From positions 55,757-119,756 of the forward strand of contig AZLU01000048.1 in assembly GCA_002224055.1 (NCBI GenBank): 64,000 nt of DNA, read 5' to 3'. The DNA comes from Pezizomycotina sp. ARF18. Lineage: Eukaryota; Ascomycota. Positions 733-59,425 of the stretch are shown in pieces (the first letter of the stretch is position 1; every line of letters begins with the position of its first letter). Under the pieces are notes generated by a model. That model saw only the letters and a program-made list of their open reading frames with translations. It made no database searches and was not told the DNA's origin. A program made the translations under genes and the position numbers.

Positions 733-1583
733 ATGGGTTCCTCGGGCCCTCCCGCAAGCAAATTGCGCCTAGCGACCACGACCCTTCCAGAATCTCCCCC
801 CAGAAATAACGTACCAGATCCTCCAGCACCTGTACCATCTCTTGCCCCTAAGCCGCCTGTGTACCGTCGAAGGAGTCTGCCGCCTTTTCCGCTCATCCTT
901 GCTCAGATAATCCTTGACAACCGCTTCCCGCGCGAATATTACGTCGAGGAGCCGCTAGACGACGGCGATCACGACGCCGTCGACGGTGCCGCGAGCATGA
1001 CAGACGGCAATTCGGAAGATTCGTTCGCCCACCGTTTACCCCCACGAACGTGGAAACCAAGGCGAGCGCGGACTCCTCGACCATAACATTTGAAAAATTA
1101 ATCAGGATGCGGGTAAGGAAAGCCAAGATCGAAAACAGCGATCCCCGAGTGAATCGGGTATTCTACATGCTGGAGCTGCCGCTTCCGCCCGAGCACTCGG
1201 ATCCGCTGATGCGGCAGGTGAAACTGAAAAACATTTACGTCTCACACATCTTCGGTACATCCTCGTGGATCTCGAACGTCGTCCGGGGACGCCGCTTGGG
1301 ACGAGCCGGTTTCTAACCACAGCTTCGATACAATCATGTTGGAGGTAAGTAAGCTGGTAGGGAGAGTCAAAGGCAGCGTCCTATTAAAGATTCATAAGAG
1401 GCCCGTTGAAAAAACAGTATTGGTCGAGGACCTCGTCATGGGGTTGGTGCATTGGTGCGAAGATTAGAGGATGGCGATGCGGATGTGCTTAGCAGGATTG
1501 AGAACAGGAATGTTCGAGGATTACGCTGGCTCGAAGACAATGTATTCGAGGTAGAGACCAGGATTAATCTGCTGTACTTGTAG
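733..1583 (+). pseudogene. Family copy A: F-box-like hypothetical protein, frame-broken
   Basis: The ATG at 733 lies in a good context (ACCATGG). The first 50 residues are Ser/Pro-rich. A short hydrophobic helix (FPLILAQIILDN) with the motif FPREYYV follows; copy D at 10.1 kb has FPKEYYIL. The frame then changes near 1,050, and the new frame carries the family motif DPRVNRVFYM at about 1,155-1,185. Two further frame changes lead to a tail containing LEDNVFEVETRINLLYL, which stops at 1583. A GTAAGTAAG donor near 1,344 may start an intron. No function is known. The F-box link rests on copy D, whose N-terminus looks like an F-box. Copies B and C lie nearby on the other strand. I see the motif and coding texture; the breaks could be decay or sequence error. 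Confidence 0.5.
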
Positions 1584-2104
1584 ATGCCGTGACTTGACTT
1601 GAAGCTTTTTAAAGCTTTTAAGTGATGACGATTCTTTGTGGTTTTCGAAAGCTAAAAGGTGTGGCTTCTGTATATGTCGCTGTATCTCGTTATCCGTTAT
1701 TCTTTTGCGATTTTGTTACTTCACAAGTTTCCTTAGTTCTTGACGATTTTGCTGTACATACGCTTGCTTGAATAACTATTGATCGTTCAGAGGCTTAGGA
1801 GTAGCAATATAATAGTACCCCCCCCCACCCCCTAAACCGTTGCAATATAATAGCACCGTCCCTCCCCCTGTTAAACCATCATAAATAGTTGGCGTCATGT
1901 CCTGCAGCATGTGACATTTGCTCATGCGTGGTATAGGCTCGAATCCGTAACAACCTCGAATACATTATCACTAACCCATCGCAAACCCCTGACCGTTCGG
2001 TTCATACCCTTTTTCAATTTCAGCGCGTTCCTTCCTCTCGAATTACTGCTCCCCATCTAATCAACTCCTCGAACACTTGACCAACCTGTACGTTTATCGT
2101 CGGT
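1584..2104. other. Intergenic with C-rich tandem repeat
   Basis: Nothing codes convincingly here. The stretch holds the imperfect 38-base duplication annotated separately and separates family copy A (+) from copy B (-), which converge on it. Confidence 0.4.
1804..1879. repeat. Imperfect 38-base tandem duplication, C-rich
   Basis: Two adjacent units begin GCAATATAATAG at 1804 and at 1842. Each continues into a C-run followed by AAACC. The units differ by a few substitutions and by C-run length. Confidence 0.7.
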
Positions 2105-2440
2105 TTAAGGCGTTCGGCTCCTTCGGAATTTAACATCTCTGTCCCGGTGGTTGCTCGAGGCACTCGACATGTCGACGACGATTTCTTTGCTAGGAATGTT
2201 CGTGAACGGCCTCTTCCTACAAGGGGGTCCAGTGGAACTCTCCTGTGCACCCGCGAAGGTAGTGCAGAGGTAAACGTTTTTGAAGAATATTTCCTTGTTC
2301 CTAGGACTTGGCCGCTAATCTCGACGTTGAGCATGTACGCGAGCCTATGGATCTTCCCAAGGTCGTTCACGGCATCCACCCGTTTCGAGGGTGGGGCTGG
2401 TGTACTCGATAGTAGTGTGAGTATCTGTCACAAGATATAT
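2105..2440 (-). pseudogene. Family copy B: fragment of the same F-box-like family
   Basis: The minus strand reads VNDLGKIHRLAYMLNVEI at about 2,375-2,320, close to SNDVARINRAFYMIDMPL in copy D. After one or two frame changes it reads EIVVDMSSASSNHRDR, matching EITIDMSSAYNYDKR in copy D in the same order. The frame ends at a stop at 2105. No F-box N-terminus is visible upstream; an AT-rich island begins at about 2,455. I infer a truncated paralogue in inverted orientation to copy A. Function is unknown. Confidence 0.5.
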
Positions 2441-2454
2441 TACATATATAAGGG

Positions 2455-2640
2455 TAGAGTTAAATAATTAGTTTATATATATATAATCTTTTATTATAAC
2501 GCTTATATCAAGTTATTATTATTATTATTATAATAATTATTTAATTAATAAAAGGGATAAAAACTAAATAGTAATACTACTATATTATTTATATAACTTT
2601 TTTAATAACTTTATGCCTTGTATGTTTTTAGGGCTTAAAG
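2455..2640. repeat. AT-rich island with ATT microsatellite
   Basis: About 185 bases are almost only A and T, including a run of ATT units near 2,513-2,530. The composition resembles the RIP-affected sequence at the right end of the window, so it may be a short transposon relic. No element family can be named. Confidence 0.4.
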
Positions 2641-3081
2641 TCTTGTTTGAGCCCTATAAGTTTTTAGAGCTCAAAATCACATGATCCTGAACCCGGCGTT
2701 TTATAGTGTCGAGCCTACAGTGTCGTTTCAACATTCTTGCGGGGAAAGAAGCAATTCTCCGTACTGCCGGGCTGGGGGCATTGCTCCTTGCTGGATTGAA
2801 AAACGCCGTTGGTGCCGTTTCGACTGCATGATCTCGTCACACACATCTTGAAAGACTCGATGACGATCCCGAAGAGCGTAGAAGGACGAAAGCGGAAGAG
2901 TGAGGCAGAGGTGTCGATTATCGCCGTTTTCAGTTCAAGGGGAAGATTCTTGAAAGAGGGACGAAGCTGCCGCGATTCTTTTCTGAAGTTTGTTCTCCTA
3001 GATGTAACGCCATGATGTACGATCTTGTCTTTTCGTCGCTAATTGAAAGAGGCAGAATGCGTGGGAAAGGAATATTAGAAG

Positions 3082-3112
<31 letters not shown>

Positions 3113-3457
3113 GGGGGGGGGGGAGACAGCGATGAATATTTTCTCTTAACATGGTATTTCAATTCACGACACACGATTGAAAACGATCAAATCGCGTTCA
3201 AGCTCTGACGAAACATCATCATCCTACATGAACGAACCCTAATCCAATGTCTCCAGCAACGTGAAACTAAATATTCATTGCTGTGCAGGATGTCACGCGG
3301 TGTTCCAGTCCAAGTCGTTTGTAGTTTGAGCCGAGCTTAATTATAACTGCAATTCTAAATTTTTCATCGTGATGGGCACATCTGCGTATAAATTGTGAAC
3401 CTGCCCACCCGTGTTGCCAATTTTCTAATTTCGCCACGAGGGTCCTCAATAGCACTG
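2641..3457. other. Intergenic, includes A23-G19 tract
   Basis: No gene is supported here. The stretch contains the long A-then-G homopolymer pair at 3,082-3,123. An open minus frame at 3,267-3,455 could be a second exon of the secreted-protein candidate at 3,458-3,733, but I could not find a junction in the right phase. Confidence 0.4.
3082..3123. repeat. A23 followed directly by G19
   Basis: Twenty-three A residues run straight into nineteen G residues with no interruption. The G-run could form a quadruplex. It is a polymorphism or assembly hot spot rather than coding sequence. Confidence 0.9.
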
Positions 3458-5323: not shown

Positions 5324-5513
5324 CTAAGATATGTTCAATGAGGCGTATGATTTTTGTCCAGAAAATTATCAAGCAGATTGAGACCTTTCACAAGTCAAGA
5401 GTACACATTCATCTGACCGGAATGGAATAAAGTTGATGCAATAAGAGGTTGCTATAAAAAGGAAAGAAAAGAAAGCAAAAAAAAGCAAAAATGATAACAA
5501 ATTAAAAAGCTTA

Positions 5514-7247
5514 TTACAGCGAAAGAAGCGTCGTGGGAGTAGGAGAAGAAACTCCCGAAAACACTAGAGGTGTTTTGGGATCGATTACCAAGTATTCAAA
5601 TACGCCAGCATGCCAACGGTGAGCAGGCGAAGCTATAACCCGTATAGCAACTTCAAATGCTTGTACATATTTGATAATTGTCCAGAATCGTCTCTTGAAA
5701 GTTTCGTAAATACAGTAGAAAGCCATGTAAAATATTAAAGGGGATAAAATAAGTAAGATTAGTATTAATACCTTCCGTTTCCATGCTTGGCGACGTGCTG
5801 AGGTATCATGTGTCGACTGGAGATCTTGGTCAAGGCTGTATCGAACCGGTCTAAAAGGCTTGTTCTCTTCCTTCATCATCTCCAACTCTGGATTAGATAG
5901 GTGGCTGGGACCAGAACCGAATGAATCGCTCGAGGGCCGTACTTCTGTCGTAGAAACAGTTTAGCTGCCTGTCCCATTCTATCAGACCTTCCACCCCATT
6001 CTTCTCAATGTCTCGAAAAGCAGCGACGTCCTTTTTCTCTTTTGCTCCCTCGCAAGGCCATACAAGCTCCTAAGCTGTGGCATACAGACGATCCACAGCG
6101 CGGTGGCGCACTGCGCGATAGTCATATAGTAGCCCCACGCGACCCAGGTCCACGACCCCGGAAATTCTGGTCGAGAGGTTCGAGACCATAAGTCCCAGAC
6201 AACAAACAGCGCCCATGATGTTCAAAAAGCCGGTGAAAAACACGGCAGCGGAAAGCTTTTCCCATACGGTCATCTTTTGCATGCGATAGATTATAATCAG
6301 GGGAATAATGTAGATGACGAGGTCGGATTCGATGTTCATGCCCACTCAGATGCGAGCATTGCGAGGGTGGGACGGCAGGCAAAATTTGTCGGCCATGCCC
6401 TATGATCTCATTTAGCATGAGTGTGTTCAAAGTGAGGTAGACAGAGGAGCTAACACCCTTACCACTGATCCTTGATGGGACATATGAACAAGAAGAAGCA
6501 TATCGGAGGATGGCTCCCGTGGCGGTTGAGAGCCATCCAATATGATATAGCCAGAAAATTTGGGGTTATATGCCCTCGGTGATAGGTTGTGATAGAGCAG
6601 CAAGAGGTCGGCTTTATAAAGTAGATTGAGGGTAAAAAGAGCCAATCGATAGCATAGATAGTCTGTAGTGCAAGAGGAATCATTCCAGGTTACTTCAACT
6701 GGTTCCTCTAAAGTATTTGACGGGGCAAAGCAAGGGCTTAAACAACATATTTATTCGGAAAGGGGATTCGTCAGTGTATTGGAGCTACAAGCCTGTGATA
6801 TGCTTCCCTTGGTGTACTACGAACCTTCTGAACTATGATTAACTCATATAATGGTCGCTTCAATATGAGAGTGGGCATATAGTGAAAGATATCATAGTCA
6901 TTGTCAATGCTAAACACAATAAACGCATCCCAGGAAGCGAGCCAGGCTCCGACGACGAGGACGTCCCTGTACCAGGCAACTTGTCTGAGTCCTCTTACGT
7001 TGACGTATAATCTAGCGAAGAGAAGTAATGTCGAGACTGCAAAGCCGTCCACGAGAAAATCTACATAATAGGTAAGTATGAATGCACGCTGCTTGGTAAA
7101 GGGAAATTCAGTGAGTGATTTTCTTACGATGAGTCCTTCCCCGCTCCAGGTGTCATGTCCCGGCGGTCTCTCCGCCAGAGAGGGATTTGTTGCATTTATC
7201 AAACTTCCTAGTGATTGGCTGGTATCTATTTGTGTATAGTTGAACAT
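5514..7247 (-). CDS. R1: fungal rhodopsin-domain integral membrane protein
   Basis: The ATG at 7247 begins a short extracellular N-terminus (NYTQIDTSQS). A donor GTAAGAAAATC near 7,129 has the same 11 bases as the first donor of R3. Membrane segments follow: VDGFAVSTLLLFARLYV, then VLVVGAWLASWDAFIVF, then IYAIDWLFLPSIYFI. The hallmark DLVIYIIPLIIIYRMQKM (about 6,325-6,270) leads into FFTGFLNIMGAVCCLGLMV and WIVCMPQLRSLYGL. The C-terminal tail is hydrophilic (SSDSFGSGPSHLSNPELEMM), and the true end may be a donor near 5,770 rather than 5,514. The Fung_rhodopsin family is seven-helix and largely uncharacterised; some members are linked to CFEM receptors and infection. Several frame changes occur, about one every 250-300 coding bases. 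Confidence 0.75.
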
Positions 7248-9225
7248 ATTAGAAGGAGTTGCTTGTAAGATAGTTTTTTCCTTTGAGATAGTTCAGAAGA
7301 GTATTGTGATGAAATCGTTCTCGAATGAAATGGCCGACCCTCGCAGAAGCGTAAAATCGAAGTGTTTATATATCCCGTCTCCGGTGTTCATCGTTCTTTT
7401 ACTGAAATATTTTGCTTGATACTTGAGAAAGAAGGGAAACCCCTCGCGGACCCATCGTAGCTGTTGTTGTGGGTAGCGTACGCCCCATAGCGTTACATAA
7501 CCTTGCCCAGGAGTCTATCTTGTCCGTTTCGTCTACGTTTCCCACAACCAAAAATTAGCACTCAACAGACTTTTTTCATCGGGATAATTATTATGATACC
7601 TTATTTCCGGTGTATTGGTATGAGTTTCTAAGATATTATGGCGTAATTTAACAACTGGGGGAAACAATCTGCGTGATTATATATTGCTATCAGAGTCGCG
7701 TATCTACGTCACGTAAAATACCTGAGAGAAAACAGATGCGCTTTGGCGCACTAGTGCCTTTACCAGCTGGAAAAAGAAAAAAAAATTATACTACCTTTAA
7801 TACAGTCATTGCTTTGTAAGGTGGGTTGGCGCGTTCTCAAAGCAGAAACTAGGGAACTTTCGGAAGCCTCCCAGCACACCAAGATCAAACCGTTGAAAAC
7901 CAGTTAAGATTATCACCGAAACCAGGAAATCTTTCCATATATCAAACACTACTGTGAGATGCCTAAATGTAGGTCTCCGGGCGCTGTCAGGTATCGTCTA
8001 ATACTACACTTAGAAACGTTGAGGTGGTTATCTAGCGTCTAAATTTCCCGATCAAGAGCCCCTAAAGATCACCCGAAGGGTCAAGGGTTTTAGCGTCGCT
8101 TCGCGATTCCAGGGCATACGATTAGGCCTCGTTTAGACCCCAGGAGCCTTGAAAGCCAGCTATTTTCTCCGTGGTGTCGGAAATGTAAGCAGTCTTAACA
8201 GTTTTGGAGGCTGCAGTAGTTTTTTTTTTTTTTTAAAGAAAGTTACAGTTATGTTAAGAAATCTTTTATTGGTCGTGCCACGATGTGTCTCCGTCCGAAG
8301 ACCCGGTTCGGGCCTTACACCACAAAACATCTATTGACTCATGAAAGTCTATCTTAGTTTCATGAGCTTTAATGTGGGGCTACTCCTTCCAGTGAAATAT
8401 CAGCGTCGGGCTGCATAACATAATGAAAACGCGTGAGAGTATATTATCTAGTACGGTTCTTTCCATTTTGTATTTTAAGAATCAAAAATTAGCATTCTCT
8501 ATTTCAAGATTCAAAAAATCAGCACTATATTTCAAGAATCATAATCTCTTACCTTTATTTTCATTCTTTATATTAAAAAATTAATGAACCTCTCCCATTA
8601 TTGCTAGTCAATTTATCGATAATAGGGATTGAGAAAAGAGATCATTTAGATTGTCCGTGGTAGTCTTTGAGTTTTTTTCGTCATCTCGCCTGCTGATCTT
8701 ACCACCCACTTCACTCCTGGCTTCTCGAATATCGGACTCAAGAACAAGCTTCCAGGCATTTTTCATGCTTCAAGCCCCGCTAATCTCTAACCAGCCGCAT
8801 TATATAGGTTATTTGACAGCCTATTCTCGTGGACCTCGGTATTTTGATCCAACAACGAAATTTTTGGAAATTAATCTATTTCGAGGAGAAAATGTTTCGA
8901 TATTCAAGATAGTTTCGGCTTTTCCCTCGTCAATCTGCGGTAAGCTATCTGTGACCGGAAGCGGCGTCAAAATCTATATATTCATGCAAATCTAGAGATT
9001 TCTTGGGTTCAATGAAAGCAATGGTTCACGGTTAAATGACTCGATGACTCGATGAATAATGGCGCGTTAACTTTATACCTCAATAAGGACATTTGGATCG
9101 GACTGACTATGAGGTCTCTTCGGTTTACACGAGGGATGATCGAGAGAAGAAAGCGGAGGAAGGCCGAGGTGTCCTTACGGCTTAAACGGCTCCTTAATTT
9201 GAACAACCGCCTTGAATTCTTAGAA
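7248..9225. other. Intergenic, no gene seen
   Basis: About 2 kb without a convincing gene. Its longest open frame, plus 8,651-8,995, has no homology I recognise. A T14 run occurs at about 8,220. Confidence 0.45.

Positions 9226-9700: not shown

Positions 9701-9704
<4 letters not shown>

Positions 9705-9731
<27 letters not shown>
9705..9731. repeat. AC dinucleotide microsatellite
   Basis: Thirteen AC units in a row. The open reading frame that appears to start inside it on the minus strand begins in the repeat itself and is not a reliable start. Confidence 0.9.
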
Positions 9732-13766: not shown

Positions 13767-13769
13767 GGC

Positions 13770-15004
13770 CTTGGTTTTATAATCATTCCCGATCCCTGTT
13801 ACCTCTTCCTAGAACAGCCGCATGTCTCGCTTCTGGGTCCTCATTGCGCCTGTTACGAATGTTATCGTAGAGTGGACGACAGTACCGGGTTTATGGATGA
13901 CATATTGAGCGTCGGACAGCAGGCGACAATAACAGCAGTGGCCATCTCGGCGGCGTACCAGCACGCTGCGAGTGTATTCGATGCCTCAGTGCCAATCGCC
14001 ACAAGCTTCCCTAGCGTGCATATTATACAAAGCGCCCCTAGAGAGAATATTCCCACGATACCCAATATTGACTTCGCGTTGCAAAATTTCGAAGCCTTGG
14101 TAATAAGAAAAACGGTAAAATGTAAACGAGGAGGTCCGTGATGACGTTGACTATGTTCACGATGAAATACGCGCCGGGCTGTGCCCAAGACAGGCAACGT
14201 TCGTCTGATGTCAATGCCCTGTGTTTCACAAAACACCAACAACAAATGTCATACCGGCAGTTAGCGAACATGTTGGATTTTATCATTCCCCTTTTCCATG
14301 GATTGTTTTATACGTATGATGTAAATTAAACCTTGACAGGAAACGTGGAGAGAAAACAATGGGAATTTTTGCAAAATAGACATACCAGTTCCTTGAAATC
14401 GGCTGGCACCATCCAAGGTTCAATCCCAGCATAAGGCACAATCCGACTGCGACTATCCCGACCGTAACCCACATCGCTCCTCGTAGCTTAACCATGTCGC
14501 GTGGTATCATTCCGTGGTACATCACCAGGAAACTCGCTTTTATCCCATAGACGACAAAATAGTAAAACGGTATGGTTCCGTAGCGCAATTTCAACCTGCC
14601 TCTATAATGTCGGATCCGTGATGTAGTTTTCGAATTTGGAAATGTCTTGCCGTCGTACCGGATTCCAGGATTCCATAGTCCGTATTTCACCGATGACAAT
14701 TGGTCGACGATGCAGCAACCGAAGAAGAACAACCATGATATTAAGATTAATAGGTCTGGCGTCGTAATGTACTGAGGACGTGTATTCGCGCGTATAGTCG
14801 CAGGAGGAGGAACAGTAGGGATATGCCTAGGCAAACGAATTCGACGGTCTAAAGATTCATAAGAGACAAAATTCGAAATGAGAGTCAGTCCAGCGCAAGA
14901 CAGAAAACAACCTGGCGCGCCAATTGCGATCCTTGGGCTTTTGTTTTAGATGATTGGTGTTTTCCATACGATTGCAGTCCCGCGGACACATTAGCCGCAC
15001 CCAT
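13770..15004 (-). CDS. R2: fungal rhodopsin-domain integral membrane protein
   Basis: The ATG at 15004 gives MGAANVSAGLQSYGKHQSSK. After an intron ending in ATCTTTAG the first helix reads VEFVCLGISLLFLLLRLYAR. A frame change near 14,770 leads to TPDLLILISWLFFFGCCIVD, then KYGLWNPGIRYDGK, the helix-2/loop signature of this family. Further segments are PFYYFVVYGIKASFLVMYHG and WVTVGIVAVGLCLMLGL. A GTATGT donor after ISRNW opens an intron of about 160 bases that probably ends in ACACAG. The diagnostic VNVITDLLVYILPFFLL is followed by a frame change near 14,110, then SILGIVGIFSLGALCIICT. The tail PLYDNIRNRRNEDPEARH ends near 13,776. Seven helices can be counted. At least three frame breaks are present. 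Confidence 0.75.
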
Positions 15005-18633: not shown

Positions 18634-19803
18634 ATGTTGGCCCCGATACGCATGCGAGTATCGGCCGTTATCGTAAGAAAATCGACGAGCTCTCTTTTAT
18701 CAGAAAATTAATCACCTGCGAGCGTCATATTTTTAATATCTAACCTCTCTATCAGGGTCAAGAATGGACGTTCGTAGCCATCGCGGGCGTATTCGTGTGC
18801 CTGCGGCTGTATGTCAGAGTCAAGCGTCGGACGTTTAGCGCCAGCGATGTGGTGGTTCTTCTTGCCATGCTATCACTCATCTCCGCGGCTGCATGCGACA
18901 CGGCAATGGTCAGCTTAGGGTTCTACGACAGAACGCTAGATTTTAGCCCAGACGGAATCAATTCCATTTACAGGAAAATTCCTCACGACCGGCTCGTTAT
19001 CATACTCAAGATTTACTGGACATCATCGTTCCTTATTACACAACGCTGTGGTGAGATTGATGATTGTGGCGAGCGCGATTTTGAATTACAAGAAGTCTAG
19101 TTAACATCCGCCTGGTTTTCCTAGGCTCGTAAAATTCGCCCTTTTGCTCATGTATTACGACCTCCTTACACCTGACATCATCGCGCCGCGGCTGCGATGG
19201 TATCTTAACTTAACGTCCGCGTCTGTCCTCCTAACTTACCTGATTATCATCCCACTAAACCTCTTCGGCTGTATACCTATTTCGCTCAACTGGCTCGTTT
19301 CGGACCCTAGTCGAGCATGTATCGAGTACAATGACGAGAAAATATACTACGCGACCGCCTGCTGTCACATCTTCACCGACGTTCTCATATTCTCCATCCC
19401 ATTTCCGTTGCTGCCTTGTTTACGATTAGCGAGAAGGACTCGGAGAGCGATCGCGGCAATGTTCACATTCGGCTTTTTCGGTGTTCTCTTGACCGTTTCG
19501 AGGGTTGTGTATGTTCTCGTTACTACGGACAATCCGATCATTGGCGCGCCGCAAAGCTGGGCGTGTTTGGAGCAGGTCGTTGGCGTCGTGGTATGTTGTT
19601 TACCGGCGATATGGACGTTGAGATTAGGGTTAAAGGGCGATAAACTTGACGTCGAGAAACTCTACGTCAGTAATGAGGTCATGCGGGACGCGCTGAGGAA
19701 GAGGAGGGATAATGCATACTCGAGCGAGCAGGTGGAAGAAGCGGCGCATGAGAGGTGGTGGTGGGAGCTACGGGCGCAAAGAAATCGAGATTCCGGGACT
19801 TAA
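18634..19803 (+). CDS. R3: fungal rhodopsin-domain integral membrane protein
   Basis: Exon 1 is 18,634-18,672 (MLAPIRMRVSAVI), donor GTAAGAAAATC. Exon 2 is 18,756-19,050 (EWTFVAIAGVFVCLRLYVRV, then DVVVLLAMLSLISAAACDTA). Exon 3 is 19,125-19,803. The protein is about 338 residues, normal for the family, with seven hydrophobic segments, the third-helix region KFALLLMYYDLLTP, the hallmark HIFTDVLIFSIPFPLLPCL and a final segment VVGVVVCCLPAIWTL. The cytoplasmic tail is charged and ends RNRDSGT. One T is missing from exon 2 near 19,030: with it the frame reads SSFLYYTTLW straight into exon 3. The first donor is identical over 11 bases to that of R1, which supports common ancestry. Ligand and role are unknown. 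Confidence 0.8.
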
Positions 19804-20477: not shown

Positions 20478-21804
20478 CTATCGACAGTAAGCGTGGTATC
20501 TCCTGTTACTCATTTCGGTCTTTAATCTCTCACAGAAGCTCTTGACCTCAGGGACTTCCCAGCCCAGGACGTTCGTGAACAGCTTTAGGCATATCCCGTC
20601 TATCCCATCGAGGAGGATAACCAACTGGTAGCCCCCCAGTTCCTTTAGCCTCTTATCCTTCGCCCAGACATTCAATGGCACCTTCTTCGTGACCACTTGC
20701 ACGTCCTCGAATCCCGCCGCTTCTAAACCCGGCTTGGCATTCTTGCACTGATCCTGCACTGGTTTTCCGATCTTTGCTGTAGCTTCCCTGATCAATCTTA
20801 TATACCTGTACATCTCGCTATTCTCCGGAACCGTTCCGTCGTCACACAGAACGTCTATATCCGGTTCGGCTAGCTGAATGTAACCACCGGGCCTCAACAC
20901 CCTCAGCGCGTTTTTATAGCTTTGGCCAATCGGATATGGAAGCGCGCATGTATCTCGCGTGGACAAAATCGTAACTATTCTCTCTAAACGTCCAGTCTCC
21001 CTCGGCGTCGTCGATCTGGAATTCAAGGTTTGGAGGCACCCAAACAGGCTGTATAGGCGTGATATCCGTGCCGACGACGTGTGCTGAAGGAAATTTGTCC
21101 GCCATATCGATTGCCCAGATACCTGTCCCACATCCGATATCCAGGATACGTTGTGGATTTGAACCAATTGTGCGACGTGGAGCTCACCTAATCCAACACC
21201 CATTAGCGCGGAAGAACCTTTTACATCTGGATTTCGAGACGTTAAACCATCGAGTATCATTCTGAAGAGCTGTGCGTAAAGTCCAGTCGCATTTGTTCGG
21301 CCTCTGTTAAAAGTAATCAAGCCCATTAGCAGTGTCCTGGGATATTGCTCCGGGCATAGAGATCAACTAGGGTTTATCTTACCATCATTCGGAAAAAGGT
21401 ATTTGAATTTTTCCCGTATCTGCGGCCATTTTCATATCTGCATGGACAGGGTCAGGCTTTCGCTGCAAGTTGTTGACCTAGCAGGCGTGACAATGAATTG
21501 AAACTTACTCGTGCTGCTGAATTGCTGAACGAAGCGAAGTCGTATCCGTTATCAAGCTGTGTGTATGGGTTAGTTAGAAAGTCGTATTAATCTTAGACCC
21601 TTGAAGGCTTATAGCTTTCATGGAGGGGTTATTGTTCATGGTTACTTACCTGCCAGCATCGAAGTCACTGTAAAAGTCACTGTCGCTAGAAGACCCTGAC
21701 TGATTCAGGGTGTTGAAACAGTAAGATCCCAATCTCTAACCCGGTTATCTTGCGTTACATACCTCTGCTGCTACGACATCCGAATCTGAGGGAATCGCCG
21801 CCAT
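20478..21804 (-). CDS. LaeA-like SAM-dependent methyltransferase
   Basis: The ATG at 21804 opens MAAIPSDSDVVAAE (donor GTATGT). Two short acidic exons follow, SGSSSDSDFYSDFDAG and SLITDTTSLRSAIQQHE. Then come YENGRRY and LFPND, the family's usual lead-in, and EAEQMRLDFTH. The SAM-binding motif I is RILDIGCGTGIWAIDMAD (about 21,155-21,105), followed by FPSAHVVGTDITPIQPVWVP, FDF-type YDFVHARYM and ALRVLRPGGYIQLAEPD. The C-terminus is WEVPEVKSFCERLKTEMSNR. These features define the fungal LaeA/UMTA-like group; LaeA itself is a nuclear regulator of secondary metabolism, but many paralogues have no known target. Four or so frame changes occur, at about 21,410, 21,270, 21,200 and 20,920, while all splice sites are canonical. 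A last exon may add a few residues beyond the stop at 20,478. Confidence 0.8.
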
Positions 21805-22995
21805 GTTTAATAGTGATCACACTTTGTAACTATACTAAAGATAGTTAGAAGCGGAGTCTCGCCCAGTAAATGTAAGAATCGTTCCGTGTCTGCTCGGCAA
21901 GAGAGAAGGGATTGCTTCATATTATAACTATTTATTTTTTCCTCTGTGACTCCCTTCCGAGGTTTAAGCGGGGCTCTTTGTCCCTCCTACCAACAATGGA
22001 ACTGTAAATCCGAAAAAGTTTCAAATGAAGGCGCAAGACCTTGCTCGCACCCTTGTACCTGTCGCAATACAGAGCGGGCTTGCGGCGATACTTCTTGGGA
22101 TATGTAACCCCTTTCGGAGTTCCTCATCGTTGACCCATGCGCCGCAGGCTTACTTGGCGTTTCTACACGGGCCTAGACGTAACGCGAGAGCAGTGATAAC
22201 GCTAGTCTTCGGGACGTGAAGTTTCCAACTGCTGGTAAGAGAAAAAATTCTTCGAGGATATTATTATTTGAGAGGCGCGATGGCCTATAGATGAAAAGCC
22301 TCCTTAGTACGCGTTTCGATATCGAATCCTGGTAAAATTAGAAGGTCTATTGTTACCAGGTCACACCTTGCACTAAGGTCATATCTGACCCAGACTCAAG
22401 ACTTGTTGAGCTGAGAGCACCAGAGACTTTTTGGGTTTGTCGCTCTAAGCGCAAAACTCCATCTAGCTCCGATAGGACCAGTCTCAAGAGCAGTACTCAG
22501 TAGTGACTTAGAAACACGTATATAAACATGCGACGCTTGTAAAAACCAATATACTAGTGTACTTCGTCATATCTCGTTCGATATCGACATTGAGCTATAA
22601 CGCTGTAGAGCTAGGCAGGCGCGCGGGTGGCAGGCTAGAAATTAGACTCTAGTTATTGGTTCCCGCTCTTGCTCTTGTCGCTTGTTTTTTTTTTTAGCGT
22701 GTTTGTTACGCCGGGAAGAAACATCCCAATTCCGCGTTTTCTTGGCAGGAACCAACGGATCTGCGACTGAAATTATTTTTATTTTTTATTTTTCGATCGT
22801 GAAGTACTTCTAATCATGACGTAGATAGAGCCCGCTCATCGAGAACCAAAATACACCAAACTTCATGAATCTTTTCTATCAACTCTATTAAGTATATACT
22901 CCTCATTCACAAAGTAGCAGAGCCCAGATCCGGTTTAACTATATAAAGTTCCTTATCGTCTTGTATATTTGGGCCTGGTGTACTTGAAACCAGCC
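21805..22995. other. Divergent intergenic region, methyltransferase and DGAT2
   Basis: This is a shared upstream region between minus and plus genes. It contains a tRNA-like box pair at about 22,262-22,335 and a TATATAAAG-like element at 22,940 upstream of the DGAT2 start. A plus frame at 22,025-22,219 has no motif and I do not support it. Confidence 0.45.
22262..22335 (+). repeat. tRNA-like A/B-box sequence, possible SINE head
   Basis: GCGATGGCCTATAGATGAAA resembles a tRNA A-box region, and TATCGAATCCTGG about 40 bases on resembles a B-box with its flanking stem. The acceptor stem does not pair, so it is not a functional tRNA. A tRNA-derived SINE head or a chance match are both possible. 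Confidence 0.2.
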
Positions 22996-24351
22996 ATGTC
23001 GGATGCCGCCGATACCGGAACTTTGACCAATGCTGCTGGCAGTTCAACGGCGGTCTCCGTTAACGCCGACGCGTCCTCTCCAACGCCGCGCGTTAGCCTC
23101 AAAGATTCAACCGTCGCAGCTAGAGGGCATTACAACGAAGCAGCGCGGGCAACGCTTTTCGGAAATCACTCGACCTTGGAATTGTGGACAGTCTTTTTGT
23201 GGATGCTCATGATGCCGATATCGGTGCTCTGCCAACTCATTGTGCTGGGTTGTCCGATATTCTGGCCTTACTGGCTATATATACAATTCGACAACACACC
23301 AGCGAGGGGTGGAAAGGTCAGGATGTGGGTGCGAAAGGTATGAATGACCCTTTCCTCTAGATCTGTCGTCAAGTTTTCATGTTAACAAGCGTTCAAGCTA
23401 CCTATATGGTCCTTCTACCGCTCGTATTTTCCCGTCCGTCTATACTCCGAAACGAAACTCACGTCATCAACAATATCCAATGGAAAGATCAAGAATCACT
23501 TCCTCATCGCGCACCCGCACGGTATCATGCCGATGGGGTTATGGTGTAATATAGCTACGGAAGCGACGTGTATCTCGTCGGAACACCCCGGGGCGGATTT
23601 TAGGATGTGTACTCTTGCTAGCAACTTTAAGATACCGTTTATCAGGGAGCTGATCATGGCGCTGGGCATGATACCGGTCAGCGAGGAGAGCATTAGGTGG
23701 TTCTTGATGAAGGAGTCTCCGTTTTCTACTCGTATCGAGGAAGATTGCGGGAGCGAAGAAGGATATAACGGCGATATTAAAGATAACGATTCCGATCATA
23801 TCACAAGAAAACGGCGAACACAGGACGAACGCGCTGGGTTGAGAACTATTAAAAAGAGCATTGCGGTCGTAGACGTCGTCGGTGGTTCCGCCGAAGCGCT
23901 CGATCAAAAGCCTGGGACTTGCCGTCTCACACTAAACCGCCGCGAGGGGTTCCTGCGGATAGCCATAGCAACAGGCTGCTATTTAGTTCCCGTCTTCACA
24001 TTTGGCGAAAACAACTTGTTTCAGCAGAAGGATAACCCGCAAAGATCGAGGCTGCGCAAATTCCAGGAGATTGGGAAGAAAGTTATGGGCATGAGTCCTA
24101 CGTTATTCTGGGGGAGACCGCTGAGAGGCAAGGACGATTGGGGATTTGTGCCGTTTAGGAGGAAGGTTAGCACGGTCATAGGGATGCCGATCGACGTTGA
24201 AGATATCATTGGAAAAGTGGAGAAAGAGGAGGACATCAATGATGAATTGATTGATAAATTGAGGGATGTTTATATGCATGAGCTACAAGATCTCTATAAC
24301 AGGTGGAAGGATAAGTTGGATCCGGCCGGGAGGAAGACATGGAGATTGTAG
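22996..24351 (+). CDS. DGAT2-type diacylglycerol acyltransferase
   Basis: Two exons, 22,996-23,337 and 23,398-24,351, joined by a 60-base intron (AAG|GTATGA, phase 0), give an intact protein of 431 residues. Residues 62-98 form the hydrophobic hairpin that anchors DGAT2 enzymes in the endoplasmic reticulum. The catalytic HPHG is at 153-156, preceded by SFYRSYFPVRLYSETKL. NIATEATCISSEHPG, VDVVGGSAEAL and GFLRIAIATGCYLVPVFTFG are the other conserved blocks. The family transfers an acyl group from acyl-CoA to diacylglycerol to make triacylglycerol; some members act on other acceptors. A charged insert of about 60 residues (DCGSEEGYNGDIKDN onward) separates the HPHG half from the VGGS block. An earlier in-frame TTG at 22,969 is not needed. 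This gene shows no break. Confidence 0.92.
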
Positions 24352-25087
24352 CATAACAAGACTCTACTTCTGAACATTTCTCCTATATCTTGGAGCAAAC
24401 CTTCGAGCTGCTGCCACCGCCAGCTTTATCCGGATTCTTAGTTGCCTTGATGTCTCGTAGGTACGCGAAAATAATATCTCAAGACTTTTAAATGCCTGAA
24501 AATGCAACAGCAGTTAGAATGGATGCTAAGATGGCCAAACTTAGATACTAAAGACCTATTAGCCACTGGAGTGAACCCTAACGGGAATGATATTCATAAA
24601 GGCCATTGCAATTTGCACATCGTACAAACACTGTCGTGTCTATGTCGTCGAGTTTGTTCTCGTCTTGAGAATACGGCCCCTGAAAATCTGCGAGCAACGC
24701 CGGCATGTTTGTATGTCATAGAGAACGCCTTCGAGGTTCCTTAATTTGGAGTCTACGTTATCAAGAATCTGATTCTTCTTCTTCACCTCTTAACCCAGCC
24801 TCCATACCTGTTGCAGAAGTGTTAAATACGCCTTTCCGCGATCCTGGGAAGTAAGTATCTCATCTCGGAATTTACGTTCACACACCAGATGCAACCTGTC
24901 CTATATCTCAAAGCCAACCGAAGGATACTAATTTCGGCCTACGGTACTGCTTGAAGCGTCTGCTTATCACTTCTTCTTCCAATAGTTCCTGACGTATACT
25001 CCGATCCTTAACGATCGGTCGATAACGAGATTCCTCAATCCGCGATCGCTTGCAGGGGTGGTGGTGGTGTATATTCGGGGCAAGATC
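24352..25087. other. Intergenic downstream of DGAT2
   Basis: The minus strand from about 25,070 to 24,910 continues in the same frame as the BTB relic after its stop, with a basic sequence (CKRSRIEESRYRPIVKDRS), so that gene may once have extended here. Otherwise nothing is seen. Confidence 0.4.
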
Positions 25088-25687
25088 TTAGCACAAGCAT
25101 TCTGCCATAACTAACGGATGATGGGCGAACTTCTCTACTGCCAGGCTTTTGAGATCTCCGATGTCGTACTTTTCGGCGATAGCGTAGACGGCAACATTGC
25201 TGAGTCGGGCTTGGATTGTGAGAATCTCCTGGGTGTTTCACCGTCCTTTCCCTTGTTTCCTTCTTCGGATCCATTCCTCGACGACGCGTCGTTGCTAGAA
25301 TCGCCACCAGAGCCCTGAGGCACAGGCTTGCCATTTTGCGAAGTATCGGGTAACGTCTCGTCCGAATCGACATAGTAGCTTGTATAGAGGTAGCTCATCA
25401 TTCTCTTCACCGTAGCCTCGTCGTCGCCGTTGAGACTGATAAGACCTCCCTTCGCCTCCTTATTTTTCAACAATACAATTAGCCCTATAAATATGTCGCA
25501 AAAAAGTAAAACCTCTTGAAATATTCGATTATCGAAAACTACCTTGAAGGAGCCATCGCACATAGCCGCTAGAACTGGAGATTGAGAGCAGATTATGGCC
25601 CGGTGAGCGTTGAATTTGCTTCCCCGCACACAAGCGTGATATCCGATACTTGGATGAATAGAGAAGCTTCAGGATAACCGGAAGCAT
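25088..25687 (-). pseudogene. BTB/POZ-domain protein relic
   Basis: The ATG at 25687 reads MLPVILKLLYSSK, then in another frame SDITLVCG, then back to SKFNAHRAIICSQSPVLAAM. This is the standard BTB order. After CDGSFK an 84-base intron (25,459-25,542, AAG|GTAGTT to AAATAAG) is intact. Exon 2 reads GGLISLNGDDEATVKRMMSY LYTSYY with an acidic, Ser/Gly-rich insert. A further frame change gives NVAVYAIAEKYDIGDLKSLA and VEKFAHHPLV, stop at 25088. BTB proteins dimerise and often recruit Cullin-3; fungi have many of unknown role. At least three single-base frame changes in 200 codons would abolish the product if real. Confidence 0.65.
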
Positions 25688-35700: not shown

Positions 35701-35999
35701 TCTCAGCGCCACGGCGCCATTTACCCAAGGAAACCGGCGTATTCCTCATCTGCACGTAGAAAAGGAACAGGACCACCAACTCGATATCGTATGTAAATAT
35801 CCAACAAGAAACCATTGGGCATAAATATAGCCTTGCAAGGTCCAACATCATCCGGTTAGGGTTTGGGTCTTTCACCATCCGCTGCTTGATTTAGGATCGT
35901 GAAGATCGCGTCAGATCGATACATTACTATACCGTGTCATATTATCGTATTATAATAGAAGGCTTTATACCTTCACCCTATAGGGCGTATTCCAACATT
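32781..35999. other. Intergenic, 3.2 kb, no supported gene
   Basis: Short frames on both strands only. It has a T18 tract near 33,698, an A25 tract at 34,531-34,555 and a TTAACCC doublet at about 34,276. The minus strand near 35,740-35,830 reads PNGFLLDIYIRYRVGGPVPF over a short distance, which may be a decayed exon, but I cannot extend it. Confidence 0.45.
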
Positions 36000-37288
36000 A
36001 TGTACAACGTCGGCTACCCTTCCGCTGAGGCGATGGCCAAATGGCCGAAACCGAGCGACAACCCGCCGTATAACGGCTGGCGCGTGCCGGCGGTAGAACT
36101 ACCATTCGCCGCTGTTGCGTTTTTCATGGGCATCATCCGCTTCTACTTCCGCAGAAAGACAATGACGGTCGGCATCGACGACTGGCTCATGCTTGCTGTC
36201 GTGGTAAGTTACTTCTAAACCATTTCTACTGAAATTATCTCTCGTTAATTTTAATTTCAATAGCCGCCAGGTATCCTCATGCTCATCTCCACAATAATGG
36301 GCACTCACTACGGCGCCGGATACCACATCTGGGACACAAAGCCAGAGTGGACGCCCACATTTCAGAAACTACTGCTCATATTCGAGACGTCCTCGATATG
36401 GGCGCACGTCTTCTGTCGCCTCTCGCTGCTCTTCCTGTACAGGCGCCTGTTCACCGACGTCCGCAGCTACAACCTCTTCGTCAACATCGGCATCTGGTCC
36501 AACCTGATCGTCCTCTGCGGAGGTTTCACCGCGTATATGGTCCAGTGCGCACCCATCCAGGCGTACTGGGACTGGGACCACAAGCCCGACACTGCACAAA
36601 CTCCATGGCAGTACTAGTCACTATAAATGTGCTTAACTGCCTCGGATACTTCTACGTCTTCTTTCTCCCGCTAGTACCGGTATCCCGCGCGAACCTACCC
36701 GCGGGTAAGAAGTTCGGCGTCGTTTCGCTCTTCGCCGTCGGCTTTATCACATGCGCGGTTTCCACCGTCAAGGTCGCCGTCTCAATCGTACTCTTCGTCA
36801 GGGGAGACCCAACGTGGGTCGTATCCTCCCTATTCATCCTTTGTAATGTAGAGAAGAGCCTGACGATGATATGCGCCAGCGTGCCGGCGTGCTTTAAGAT
36901 CATCAAGGCACGTCTTCTACCAGGGAGGCGAAGAAGAGCCCGAATCAGACCGCCAGCACACTGTCAGCTGCAAGCGGGGTAGCATGGAGGTCAGGCAGCG
37001 AGATTCGCTTATGGGCAGGATAGCCCTGTGGAAGAAGAGGCGGCGGATAGAGCAAACGTGGACCAGAGTAGGACGCTAGTCTCCGAAGCGGGCGCCGAGC
37101 CGCGCAGATACAGCACGACCTCGACGTCGCTGACGCCGAGAAGAATAAGAACAATAGTGTGAAGGGTGTCAATATTATGGAGTACGAGCACCGTGAGAAT
37201 GAGAATCAGTTGGAAAGAGACGTAGAGAGGGCGTCAGTATGCTTATTGTCCCGGCTACTCCTAGAGATAACGTGTTTGTCATATGAAT
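36000..37288 (+). CDS. R4: fungal rhodopsin-domain integral membrane protein
   Basis: Exon 1, 36,000-36,203, starts MYNVGYPSAEAMAKWPKPSD and holds helix 1 (VELPFAAVAFFMGIIRFYF) and DDWLMLAVVV. A 60-base intron (GTAAGT...TTTCAATAG) follows. Exon 2, from 36,264, has PPGILMLISTIMGTHYGAGY, KLLLIFETSSIWAHVFCRLS, LLFLYRRLFTD and WSNLIVLCGGFTAYMVQCAP. A one-base frame change near 36,590 precedes CTNSMAVLVTINVLNCLGYF, where family members have a conserved Cys-x-Asn. FGVVSLFAVGFITCAVSTVK and VVSSLFILCNVEKSLTMICA complete seven helices. The tail is Ser/Glu-rich and crosses two or three more frame changes; the end near 37,288 is approximate. An upstream in-frame GTG at 35,934 is not a likely start. Confidence 0.75.
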
Positions 37289-52423: not shown

Positions 52424-54452
52424 ATCTTATATCTCTTATTATATTGATAGTATTGTATATCGTCTTTTTTTTTTATCTTTTTTTTTTTTAATTTGATATC
52501 GTTGATTGTTCTGATTGATTGTTTTGCGTAGTTGGTGATTTCCATGTTTGCTCTCCCCGGCGGAATCGGTTTTGAGGTTGCGGTGAGCGTGCGGTGCGAT
52601 GCTTAAAACCGCACGATCGCGGTTGGCAATATACGCTAAGCGCGCGTTAACCTGGTGTTGAGGGTAAAATTGTCATTTTTGACTTGGCACTACCTGTCTC
52701 GGGCGCGGCAGACATGCACTCGCGGCTCCTCGCAGTACATAGAGGGAGATACAAGATGATATCAAGAGGCTACGAGGGCTCGATGATATGACGCGATCGT
52801 GAGTTCATGACTTATATGGCGTTTCATGGCAATCGGTGGAACTACCCAGCATAGAGGATTTCTTAGCAAGAAAGAGCAAGCCCAGGTCCCCACCCGGTAG
52901 TCCATGGATCCATGGATCACGTACTTCACAACTTGTCTGACCGGACCCGCCGAATTGTTAAGAAGAGTCTATCTCAGAATAGTGACATTGGTGTTGAAAA
53001 TATTTAGTCTCTGCATTTCCTTTCCTTTGTTTCCCTAAGAACCGTGAATACTTGGCTTCCATCATGTGTCGGCTTTCGACACGAAAGTTAGGGTGCTTAG
53101 GGGCGCCCTTCAGGGGTATAAATGGAAATCTTACAAAAGAGTAGCCTGAGAAGGATACATGAATTAAGAAACTCATAGACGTTACAATGATAAACATCGC
53201 AGCATATTATTCCATATCAACTTTAACTATCCATCGCGCGGGTAACCGATAAAGCGATAACAAAGAAGTAAAGCGAGGTAATGTCTCAAATACTTAGTAC
53301 ATAGACGTCGGCACCGGAATTACATGTTTCTCCGATACCACGAATCTGAACAGTAATTAGTAGATAGTATCGCCATTACGGAAATGGGCACTAAATGGTT
53401 TCTATGTGATAACAATTTCGATATTGATCGCCTATCGAGGTCTTTCCAGATATCAGTCGAAACGAAACGAAACGAAACGAAGCATGAACAGCTTTTTACA
53501 TGTGATCATCAGATCCATATATCAGAAAAAACGTGAAGAAAAAGCTCGGCAAATTTCTTATACCGGGCAACTTCGTGGATCCACGTGGAGTAACCGGACG
53601 CGATTCACCAGGTTTTCACTTAAATGTCAGCTTATCGCGAATTTTTTTATTGGCAAGGTTCAGGGGCATAATCACGAGAAGACGAGTTCCGACACTTTTT
53701 CTCTCTTCCGGATCAAATTCTTGTCTGAACCCTGGATTCATCAGAAATATAAGCCTCAAGCCACTCCATAACGTCAATAAGACAGCGGCAAGCGCAATTT
53801 ACGGATCCGAGATGGCAGGTTGCCGGCCTGTTCAGCCTTATCGATTAGTGGCTGGTGCGATAGAAAACAAGAATCTAGGATAACGATCGGTGGATATAGG
53901 TACAACGTGATTTTAAGCATCATGCCATTATCCGAGCAAAACTCAAATACTGGAAAAAAATTTTCTGCTAGTGGAAAACCACTTCTGAGATATTAGCGTA
54001 CTATCACATGTGTTTATCTACCTTTTATTATCCTATACCAATGAAGCAATATTGCATAAGCGGTGACATTTAAGCATGGCTTCGGTAGAAGCCGCGATTC
54101 CGACGTTGCGATGACTTTTCTTTCTAGTATGGATCGATCCCGCCTTCTAACAGCCGTTTTTGTAATTCGATTAATCCACGCTAGATGGCGATGAAGACGC
54201 TCCACGTCCCTTGTTTTGGGCTGTTAAGTTGGACCCGGAAAATCCATAGTGTCCGGATTACCGACTATACCAAAAGATGTAAAATAAACATTCTTCAGGG
54301 GTCTATCTCGGTACGCATATGCCCTTCATACCTTTCTCTTCAGGTATATAACGCGGCGTCCTTGTCCACCATGGAAACTACGTAGGACCTCTAACACCAG
54401 TTCGACATACAACCAACAATACATAAGATTGAAAAACAACAAGCTAAACACA
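52424..54452. other. Intergenic, 2 kb, no supported gene
   Basis: Divergent upstream region of the minus Ser/Asn-rich gene and the plus MFS gene. It includes T-rich tracts at 52,465-52,495 and a GAAAC pentamer repeat at 53,458-53,481. The plus frames at 53,406-53,883 overlap each other and show no motif. Confidence 0.45.
53458..53481. repeat. CGAAA pentanucleotide repeat
   Basis: Nearly five units of a five-base repeat. Confidence 0.85.
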
Positions 54453-56084
54453 ATGGCAGACGACCGAGCCGTTGCAGCTGCCAACATCACAAATAACAAT
54501 GACACAAGTAACAACAACACAGACGATGAATCCGTCGAGTACAAGGAGCTCGATTGGGACGGTCCCGACGATCCGGAAAACCCTCACAATTGGCCGTTCA
54601 TGTCGAAAGTATACGCGAGCATAATACCAGTAATAAGCGTGCTCGTAGTGTAAGTTCCGCAAAAATCCCTATGCAATCAATATATTAATCCCAGCCCTAC
54701 TTCAGAATATAGTTTGTATCTTTCCACTAATGTTTGATACCTTTTTAGCTCCATCTTCATATCAATCTACGTCCCCGGCGCACCACAAATCCAATACAAA
54801 TACCGCGTCTCCCAAACCGTCTCCCTCCTCCCTTATCCCGCCGTAATCGGCATCGGACTAGGTCCCATGATCGGTGCCCCATCTCCGAATCCGCCGGCCG
54901 CATCGCCGTCTACCGCTTCTCCATCGTCCTCTTCGCGCTCTTCACCTTCGGCTGTGCGCTCTCTAACAACCTCGCGACGTTAATAATATGTCGCTTTCTA
55001 GCAGCGATGTTCGGATCTCCCGCCGTCGCTGTTGGAGCGGGAAGTGTATCCGACGTATGGGATCTGGAAGAGAGCGCCGGAACAGCGGGGAATATCTTCT
55101 TGATGATGGCATTGCTAGGACCCGCTTTGGGACCGCTTATCGGAGGCTTCATAGCGGAGAATAAAAGCTGGCGGTGGTTGATGTGGGCCAATCTAATCCT
55201 CACCGCTCCAGTCTTCCTCAGTCTCATCCCGCCCGCGAAACGTACAAAAACATAATCCTCCGCCGGCGTGCCATAAAACGCGGAATACGCGTACCACCGA
55301 AACCAACTATAAAAGAGGAACTCCGGAATTTATTCGTCGTAACGCTGAAGAGACCAGTACACATGATGCTCACGGAACCGCTGGTTATTTTCACGGCGAT
55401 ATATACCGCGTTCGTGTTCGCTTTGTTGTTTCTTTATTTCGAAGCGATACCGTACGTTATGCTACGCGTCTATCAGTTTAAACTGGGTGAGATTGGAGCT
55501 TGCTTTTCGGCTGTTGCGATCGGGATATTGCTCGCCGGTATTACGTTTTATATCTGCGATAGGCTGTTTTACCAACCGTCGCGGGCGCGCGGGAAGACGC
55601 CGGTACCGGAGAAGAGGTTGTATTCTGCTATGGCAGGTTCGATACTTCTCGTTACGAGTTTGTTTTGGTTCGCGTGGCTGGCGAAGCCGGAATATCACTG
55701 GGCGGTTCCATTGGTAGGGGTGGTGCTATTCGGTGGGGTATGTTTGCTATATACGTTGCTAGCGTGGCGTATATGCTCGACGTGTACGACGCGATGGTGA
55801 GCGCTTCGGCGCTGGCTGGTAATTCTCCTCTTTCGTCTCTATTGTTCACATATTTTCTGATGCTAACTCTTTCTGTGCAATAGCGAATTCGATGTGCCGG
55901 TACGTCCTCGGCGCTGCTTTCCCGCTGTTTCGCGGTGAAGATGTACGACCGTCTCGGAAGGGAGTGGGCGGGTAGTCTGCTCGCCTTCATCGCGGTGGGC
56001 ATGATGCCACTGCCGTGGGTGATGTACAAGTGGGGAGCGGGCATGAGGGCCAGGAGCGCTTATATCAAACATGAATGCAAGTAA
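54453..56084 (+). CDS. DHA1-type MFS exporter
   Basis: The ATG at 54453 opens an Asn/Asp-rich N-terminus and the signature DWDGPDDPENPHNWP (about residues 34-48), typical of fungal drug:H+ antiporters of the TPO/FLR1 group. Intron 1 (GTAAGT near 54,651 to TTTTTAG) precedes PGAPQIQYKYRVSQTVSLLP. Later segments are RIAVYRFSIVLFALFTFGCA, RFLAAMFGSPAVAVGAG, LMMALLGPALGPLIGGFIAE and PETx-like RETYKNIILRRRA. The second half has LVIFTAIYTAFVFALLFLYF and SVAYMLDVYDAMVSASALAG. After an intron ending TGCAATAG come NSMCRYVLGAAFPLF, RLGREWAGSLLAFIAVGMMP and ARSAYIKHECK, stop at 56084. Twelve helices and about 520 residues are expected. Frame changes occur near 54,885, 55,240, 55,750 and 55,920. Substrate cannot be predicted. 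Confidence 0.82.
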
Positions 56085-56835: not shown

Positions 56836-57244
56836 ATGTCCGATACCGACTCCCGCAAGGTCGCCCAAGATGCGGAGCGAGACCTTAACTCCTACGCTGC
56901 AAAAGCCGGCAAGCCAGTCTCCGACACGGCCGCAGAATCAGGCGTTGACGCTTTCGTGCAGAATAAATTCCCTGGTAGCGGTGTCACGTACGGGTCTGAA
57001 GCCAGCGGCGCTGGCGATAACAGAGATATCCCAGAGTCAGAAGGAGGTGGTCAACATACCAGTGGGCGGTAAGATAGCTTTCTGTCATGATATAACGGAA
57101 AGGCGGATGCTGATTTGTTAATATAGGTCGATGAAGGCCAAAGATTTCGAAGGAGAGGGCGGGCCGGAGGTTAAGTCCAAGAAGTACGACGAGGAGCATG
57201 GCGTCGTCAGGATGCTAGATCGAAGAAAGACGCCGGGGACTTAA
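56836..57244 (+). CDS. Small hydrophilic conserved fungal protein
   Basis: Exons 56,836-57,068 and 57,127-57,244 are joined by a 58-base intron (GTAAGA...AATATAG, phase 2) and give an intact 116-residue protein. It begins MSDTDSRKVAQDAERDLNSY, passes FVQNKFPGSGVTYGSEASGA and DIPESEGGGQHTSGR, and ends with MKAKDFEGEGGPEVKSKKYD and RMLDRRKTPGT. There is no signal peptide or membrane segment; Gly, Glu, Lys and Asp dominate. I recall similar short cytosolic proteins of unknown role across ascomycetes with the same FPG-x-x-VTYGS and DFEG-x-GGPE blocks. Composition suggests an intrinsically disordered, possibly stress-related protein, which is inference only. Confidence 0.8.
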
Positions 57245-57908
57245 CTAGGTAGGCTTGATTCGGCATAACTAGCTAGAGCTTCCCAGTTCATTTTTGATCA
57301 TTGTTGCTAATGTCATGGTCGGAAATAAGCTCGATATTCTAAATTCTCGGTAGTTAGCAGACAAAAGCTGAAATTGTTTCAGGAAGCGGCTCCGGCAACT
57401 CGAAGGCGAGGCTTTCCGTACCATTTATCATACATAGATTGCAAACTTCCAAAAAAAAAATGAAATAGCTACACTTAATAACAAGGACTCGTAAATTTGA
57501 TACCTAGATTTCTTTCGGTGTATTAAAATTCCATTCACTGCTACTCCGTAACGAGAATACGAATATGGTTCCTATTGGATAATACCATAGCGGTACGCCT
57601 CGGTACACAGCAGTTCCTTACCACTTCTCGATAAGGCTGATCGGAGAATCAACGAGGGATATAAGGGTTTCAAGTTCTTGATTCCCAATACTAGATGTAC
57701 TTTACTAAATCGAGAAACCATGTGTTTTAATGAAGATATCGTAGCTTTTTTCTTCGGACCAATGCAATAGACGTGATGGTGAACACTATTTATTCTCCTC
57801 GTGTACTTCAGATGCGCATTTCTTATATTCGTTGGGAAAGAAGAGGTTCCAGTGGTAAATCATATTGTCTTCTCCTGGGATGGTGATCGCCGGAACGGGG
57901 CCTTGAAA
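57245..57908. other. Intergenic, no supported gene
   Basis: Spacer between the small protein gene and the F-box-like gene. An A10 run occurs near 57,452. No frame is supported. Confidence 0.5.
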
Positions 57909-59425
57909 ATGGAGAAGCAATTTGAACCACACCGAAAGTCATTTCTGGACACTCTACCACCGGAGCTGATCTATAGTTCACTTCTCCTGAAAATGTAAGA
58001 TAAAACAAACAACTCAACGTCAATGCGCACTGCTAACGTCCAGTTACAAAACAGGAACTCCCTAAAAGTTATCTCATAATCTACGCCTCGTCTCGCGACG
58101 TTACAATACCATCGTGTCCTCACAGCTCTTCCAGACTTTTGAGTTAAGCCTCGACAATAATTCAACCTATAAAGAAACCGTTTACCCCTATGGTCCGCAA
58201 TCTCGCACGAAGACTGGTGTTAACCGTAACTCGGCCCGAAAATATCTCATTCATCTCGTGGAACGATGTACCGGGTAGGTATACCGATCTCAACATGACA
58301 AATACGGACCGACAGCTATCCGATTTACTGCTGCTCCTACTATATCTTACGACTATTCACCTGACGACTCCACCTACCGTTATAAGAAATACGACAACTG
58401 ATATCTTCCGACGCATCGCGATTAAGAAAGGCTGAAATTATATGTTACCATCGATGCTGCCTCGTTGACAAAGCTGGGGAGCAATCCATTTGTGTCCGAA
58501 GCCGTTCGTGGTCTCCGGTCCGAATCTTCGCAGTCTGAGAATAGTTCACCGCAGCGATACACTTCGCCTCGACGCCACTAGCACCATCGCGGACGCCGTA
58601 CAACGGCCACTGTATATTTACTCGTTGAGCTTCAGCTACGAAGCACCCCGGTGGTGTCTCCCGGCAACAAAACTGGCAGAACCGGAATATGCCCCTTTAA
58701 TAGCCGTTCTATTACCATCCATTAAAACCCCTGCCACTAAAACATCAGAAGCCTAGCGCTTAAGAGCATAGTCTCCTTGGGTACGAGAGATAGCCACCCA
58801 GCTATCATGCAGTTTTGGGATGCCGTAGTTCCGGCTCTCACTAATACTCGAGGAGTTAATTGTTGCTTCGTACGAGTATAGCAGCTTCTGCTACGAAAAT
58901 CACGGGCCGAGTGGGACTGCAGCCAGGATGTGCAGTAAATTGGAGTACTTGGGTATTATACCCGCGGACGAAAGCGGGAACGTAAACTTGAAAGAGTTGT
59001 TGGATTGGGCCTATACGCACGAACAACTGCGAACGATAGAAATACCCGCGTACTACTACGGAGGATGATCCTCGGTCGGTTCGATACCTGGAGAGTCGAT
59101 TTCAAGAAAGAGATACAACAAGACCATAAATAGTTTAGTGATGAAAGATAGGGGAATGATGGGGAGAGGGAAGGTATTGGAACTAGTTATGCGCGATGTT
59201 ACGTGGAAGCGGTGCGAGATTGTATCTGCGTCTGTTTTAGAAATGCGGGCGAAGAAGAGGTGGAGGTTCATGGAGGCACTAGCGAAGGCTGTGGATGGAT
59301 CTATTAGGGCGGCTTTGGACGGTATGGCGGTGGAGCCGGATCGAGCGAACAGTACTTGGTATAGGAGGGCGAAAAGGTGGTTTGTTCCAAAGGGTGTTTC
59401 GTCTGATAGACGAATCGCTTCTTGA
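57909..59425 (+). CDS. F-box-like protein, frame-broken
   Basis: The ATG at 57909 gives MEKQFEPHRKSFLDTLPPEL followed by IYSSLLLKM, an F-box start. A donor (GTAAGA) lies at 57,995. Later plus-strand segments are VSGPNLRSLRIVHRSDTLRL (about 58,510), PLYIYSLSFSYEAPRWCLP, LEELIVASYEYSSFCYENHG (about 58,850), LEYLGIIPADESGNVNLKEL and LLDWAYTHEQLRTIEIPAY (to 59,067). The last part, 59,150-59,425, reads MRDVTWKRCEIVSASVLEMR and RRAKRWFVPKGVSSDRR. Leucine spacing fits an F-box protein with a degenerate leucine-rich C-terminal region, probably a substrate adaptor for an SCF ubiquitin ligase. Several frame changes separate the segments; the middle, 58,000-58,480, is the least certain. Confidence 0.5.

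Follow-up and report, generated by a model that had tools for sequence, protein, structure and literature searches.

Frame breaks in genes of a 64 kb stretch of Pezizomycotina sp. ARF18, very probably consensus errors of the assembly

Several genes of the window (the whole stretch of 64,000 nucleotides analysed, C48:55757-119756, in an assembly of 46,361,250 bases and 408 contigs) contain frame breaks that we attribute, with a probability of about 97%, to errors in the assembly consensus, mostly single missing bases, probably from long reads with too little polishing. The cause is very probably a fault of quality and not biology. Residual long-read indel errors had been proposed in the initial annotation, and this reading is supported because housekeeping genes on other contigs and one untranslated rDNA copy are broken alike, the reads themselves being presumably long and noisy. 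The value of the finding is that of a quality warning only: claims of pseudogenes, gene loss or odd frames drawn from this assembly, in the window or elsewhere, are untrustworthy unless backed by accurate reads, and gene absences, truncated proteins and open-frame lengths derived from it are biased.

Genes of the window

Forty pieces of the window, which holds 389 open stretches of at least 60 codons, were scanned with Pfam, and several breaks are based on translations read by eye. The features are the following.

6073..7289, minus strand: possible rhodopsin-like pieces in several frames, with a weak match only (E 0.033, on 6073-6345)
14286..14945, minus strand: rhodopsin-domain piece (PF20684 positions 13-125, E 1.1e-8)
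18744..19800, plus strand: fungal rhodopsin-domain gene (PF20684 on 19105-19800) whose frame changes near 19,030-19,105, perhaps at an intron
20481..21183, minus strand: methyltransferase, called LaeA-like in the initial annotation, with a frame change at about 20,920 (PF13489 on 20917-21183)
22939..24351, plus strand: DGAT2 (diacylglycerol acyltransferase), clean frame, one apparent intron (DAGAT; exon 1 by eye)
25138..25668, minus strand: piece with a short BTB match (PF00651, E 5.1e-5, positions 17-44 of 110)
35952..36979, plus strand: fungal rhodopsin-domain gene matching PF20684 in two frames, with the switch at about 36,587
54402..55880, plus strand: MFS transporter gene with frame changes at about 54,885, 55,240 and 55,770 (MFS_1 in two frames; outer two breaks by eye)

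Several rhodopsin-domain genes or pieces are present in the 64 kb (6073-7289, 13865-14945, 18744-19800 and 35952-36979), the PF20684 cut-off being exceeded at three places in the window and the remaining pieces being weak or recognized by eye; Pfam gave no rhodopsin match on 6771-7289, 6125-6565 or 6430-6750. In the gene at 36 kb, a break had been claimed at about 36,590, and this is borne out by the Pfam matches. The piece 36264-36614 corresponds to PF20684 positions 32-130 (E 1.2e-14) and the piece 36233-36979, in a different frame, to positions 130-236 (E 1.5e-16). From the match rows, the two join at 36,587, adjoining the position claimed, and therefore leave no room for an intron; the first piece of this gene (35952-36215) matched no Pfam family. 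For the break placed at 19,030, the downstream piece 19105-19800 matches PF20684, whereas the upstream piece 18744-19097 is without a rhodopsin match in Pfam, so the frame change near 19,030-19,105 may be an intron.

The MFS transporter gene provides a similar case, as 54749-55252 corresponds to MFS_1 positions 55-174 (E 4.8e-19) and positions 189-318 are matched in another frame by 55165-55797 (E 8.3e-7, with 28.7 bits below the Pfam cut-off of 33.4). The frame change is located between 55,234 and 55,312, and the gap exceeds that of the profile by 35 nt, which is short for an intron. The break given at about 55,240 is thus upheld by MFS_1 in two frames, the second match being under the cut-off, whereas that at 54,885 comes from the translations as read by eye; the MFS pieces 54738-54980 and 55563-55880 matched no Pfam family. 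In the methyltransferase, the PF13489 match on 20917-21183 of the minus strand (E 2.3e-14) runs up to the stop of the piece, in agreement with a break at about 20,920, while the continuation in the frame 20481-21362, which has no Pfam match at E 0.01, was likewise read by eye. A search of solved structures with the methyltransferase piece returned general methyltransferases only.

DGAT2 had been described as clean, and it is indeed a single open frame of 321 codons over 23386-24348, matching DAGAT in two stretches (E 4.5e-73), with the cleanness of exon 1 (22939-23340) judged by eye and this exon alone giving no Pfam family; the solved-structure search gave no match for DGAT2. No Pfam family was found for the neighbors of the BTB piece (25596-25757 and 25038-25394), nor at E 0.01 for the pieces taken as the HhH, Ser-rich and F-box-like genes, whose best matches are at E 0.055 or weaker. 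The WSC gene was not found among the 40 pieces scanned, and a tRNA search of the window returned none. At its end (60001-64000), the GC content falls sharply to 23-24%, forming an AT-rich block; in some fungi such blocks are left by repeat-induced mutation.

Housekeeping genes on other contigs

The frame breaks are not local to the window. Members of the CCT/HSP60 and HSP70 families were sought across the whole assembly, and a third search, which scored 33 of 48 candidates, addressed actin, EF1-alpha, histones and GAPDH. The locus analysis took every row of the CCT/HSP60 and HSP70 searches (33 and 38, respectively) and 19 of the 42 matches of the third (actin, EF1-alpha and GAPDH), leaving out the histones and the other matches. 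A frame change was considered certain where less than 40 nt separate two pieces, too close for an intron. At least one such change is present in 15 of the 18 loci (HSP70, CCT/HSP60, actin, EF1-alpha and GAPDH), and the broken loci lie on 13 contigs, none of which is that of the window. Among the 39 changes, in many of which the pieces overlap, 24 are exactly one base short with respect to the profile, five are two short, two are four short and eight have a positive excess. The three loci with no certain break are the CCT on C70 and the HSP70 on C44 and C10, for which 2, 2 and 1 pieces were found. None of the matches in the CCT/HSP60 and HSP70 searches covers the full profile, and the loci are family members that need not be sole essential genes.

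The density of breaks was obtained with a purpose-written frame-tolerant aligner that allows introns (GT-AG only), using yeast Ssa1 as query. There are 16 breaks in 624 codons for the HSP70 on C70, 7 in 541 on C49, 9 in 478 on C303 and 19 in 584 on C3, that is 51 breaks per 2,227 codons or one per 131 nt, at 52-81% identity to Ssa1. This rate, measured outside the window, is denser than the one break per 250-400 bases initially given for the window genes. Losses account for 48 of the 51 breaks (42 with one base missing and six with two), and the other three have two extra bases. Although a single stop costs less in the aligner than a single break, these 2,227 codons contain no in-frame stop. 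As a control, E. coli dnaK shows 0 breaks in 589 codons at 53% identity. Reversed Ssa1 scored 36-60, compared with 1,226-2,378 for the true sequence, and showed 2 breaks in 248 codons aligned by chance; break penalties of 10, 14 and 20 led to totals of 56, 51 and 49.

The 51 breaks exclude those of three weak alignments, namely Hsp60 (only 164 codons aligned with E. coli GroEL, at 25.6% identity) and the HSP70 loci on C208 (36% identity) and C44 (27%). They add 8, 11 and 1 breaks to a test of 71 coding breaks in seven loci, around which the longest run of identical bases has a mean of 2.44 against 2.40 at random (P 0.34), the placement of the breaks being loose. The absence of a run excess is perhaps due to this loose placement, and a lost base also shortens its own run.

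One common rate fits the four HSP70 loci (P 0.15) and is rejected when DGAT2 is added (P 0.003). The 431 clean codons of DGAT2, as counted in the initial annotation, have a probability of 5e-5 at the HSP70 rate and of 0.006-0.04 at the rates initially given for the window. So clean a gene would not be expected at a uniform rate, and the error rate must therefore vary.

The 18S rDNA array

A tandem array of six 18S copies is present on C189, copy 1 being nearest to the contig start. Pairwise comparison of copies 2-6 over about 3.17 kb gives 0-2 substitutions and 2-10 indels, whereas between copy 1 and these copies there are 9-10 substitutions and 40-45 indels, with the gaps mostly in copy 1. 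Taking the majority of copies 2-6 (3,175 nt) as reference, copy 1 carries 35 deletions (27 of a single base and 8 longer), 5 insertions and 9 substitutions, that is 49 events or about one per 65 nt, against 1-9 events in each of copies 2-6. The ratio of indels to substitutions in copy 1 is 40 to 9, and 13 of its 49 events lie upstream of the 18S match. Among its single-base losses, 25 of 27 are located in runs of at least two identical bases, which hold 54.5% of the bases (binomial P 2e-5). Read support is probably often thin towards a contig start, and the sequence alone would also allow copy 1 to be a truly degenerate copy.

Between the 18S and 5.8S matches, at L070 9160-9439, there is a match to the group I intron model RF00028 (70.8 bits). 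The SSU match spans 2,137 bases, compared with 1,831 for the model, and a further insert inside the 18S gene is possible.

Origin of the frame breaks

Noisy long reads would have led to an assembly left under-polished, from whose consensus single bases were dropped. If consensus quality varied with read depth, this would account both for the clean DGAT2 and for the contrast among the rDNA copies. Some observations weigh against consensus errors, namely the absence of a run excess around the coding breaks, the eight of 39 changes with a positive excess, the three loci lacking a certain break, the clean DGAT2 and the undepleted long runs in the first 60 kb of the window. Such errors have a known counterpart, as PMC12007338 describes long-read assemblies that lose bases at runs of two to eight and in which genes are annotated as frameshifted pseudogenes, with a bacterial example where the genes annotated as pseudogenes fell from 23.3% to 5.6% once corrected. 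The present case is similar in that bases are lost in short homopolymer runs, seen here in rDNA copy 1, and in its pseudogene-like genes. It differs by a higher density (one break per 131 nt in the four HSP70 loci and one event per about 65 nt in rDNA copy 1), and the examples of PMC12007338 are small genomes.

In favor of local decay of the window genes, or of their very recent mass inactivation as put forward in the initial annotation beside read errors, one could cite the 23-24% GC at the window end and the fact that several of the genes belong to families often holding pseudogenes. Pseudogene families of filamentous fungi also consist of recognizable genes with frame breaks. However, decay should leave stops, and none accompanies the 51 breaks of the four HSP70 loci; moreover, unlike in those families, housekeeping genes on other contigs (15 of 18 loci) and one rDNA copy show the same losses, which in the latter fall in runs. 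Inactivation of chaperone, actin and EF1-alpha genes in such numbers would hardly be survivable, and it would not introduce losses at runs into a single rDNA copy. The initial judgment that ordinary decay fits poorly therefore holds, the proposal of a recent mass inactivation is unsupported, and decay of either kind is very improbable as the general cause, while single window genes could be true pseudogenes. It is similarly improbable that ordinary introns were mistaken by eye for frame hops. The alignments of six HSP70 loci do contain introns (0-6 per locus), and one may explain the break near 19,030, but the 39 certain frame changes leave less than 40 nt between pieces, many of them overlapping, and the rhodopsin pieces of the 36 kb gene meet directly.

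Programmed ribosomal frameshifting at a genome-wide scale, as in Euplotes, would agree with breaks that are widespread, mainly in one direction and followed by a protein sequence that carries on. However, the 51 breaks share no four- or five-letter motif more often than random sites do (counts of 16 and 9, with 95% limits of 17 and 9 at random, the placement being loose) and stop triplets are not enriched at them (11 against 9.2 +- 2.7), which makes such frameshifting unlikely. It also cannot explain the losses of copy 1, because rDNA is untranslated, and both the 18S gene and the stretch upstream of it are affected, so that its probability is practically negligible. Nuclear insertional RNA editing restoring the missing bases, as in the mitochondria of Physarum, would be in line with the predominance of losses and with protein genes and rDNA both being hit, but the bases absent from copy 1 are present in copies 2-6, and the upstream stretch carries its share of events; we regard it as next to impossible. 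A combined reading, in which editing or frequent ribosomal shifts make good the missing bases in the nuclear transcripts of the fungus and the first rDNA copy is truly degenerate, is highly unlikely. Consensus errors of the assembly thus remain the preferred reading.

Finally, the distribution of run lengths over the first 60 kb of the window shows no depletion of long runs. At 3082-3123, a run of 23 A is directly followed by one of 19 G, a pair that may represent an assembly fault.
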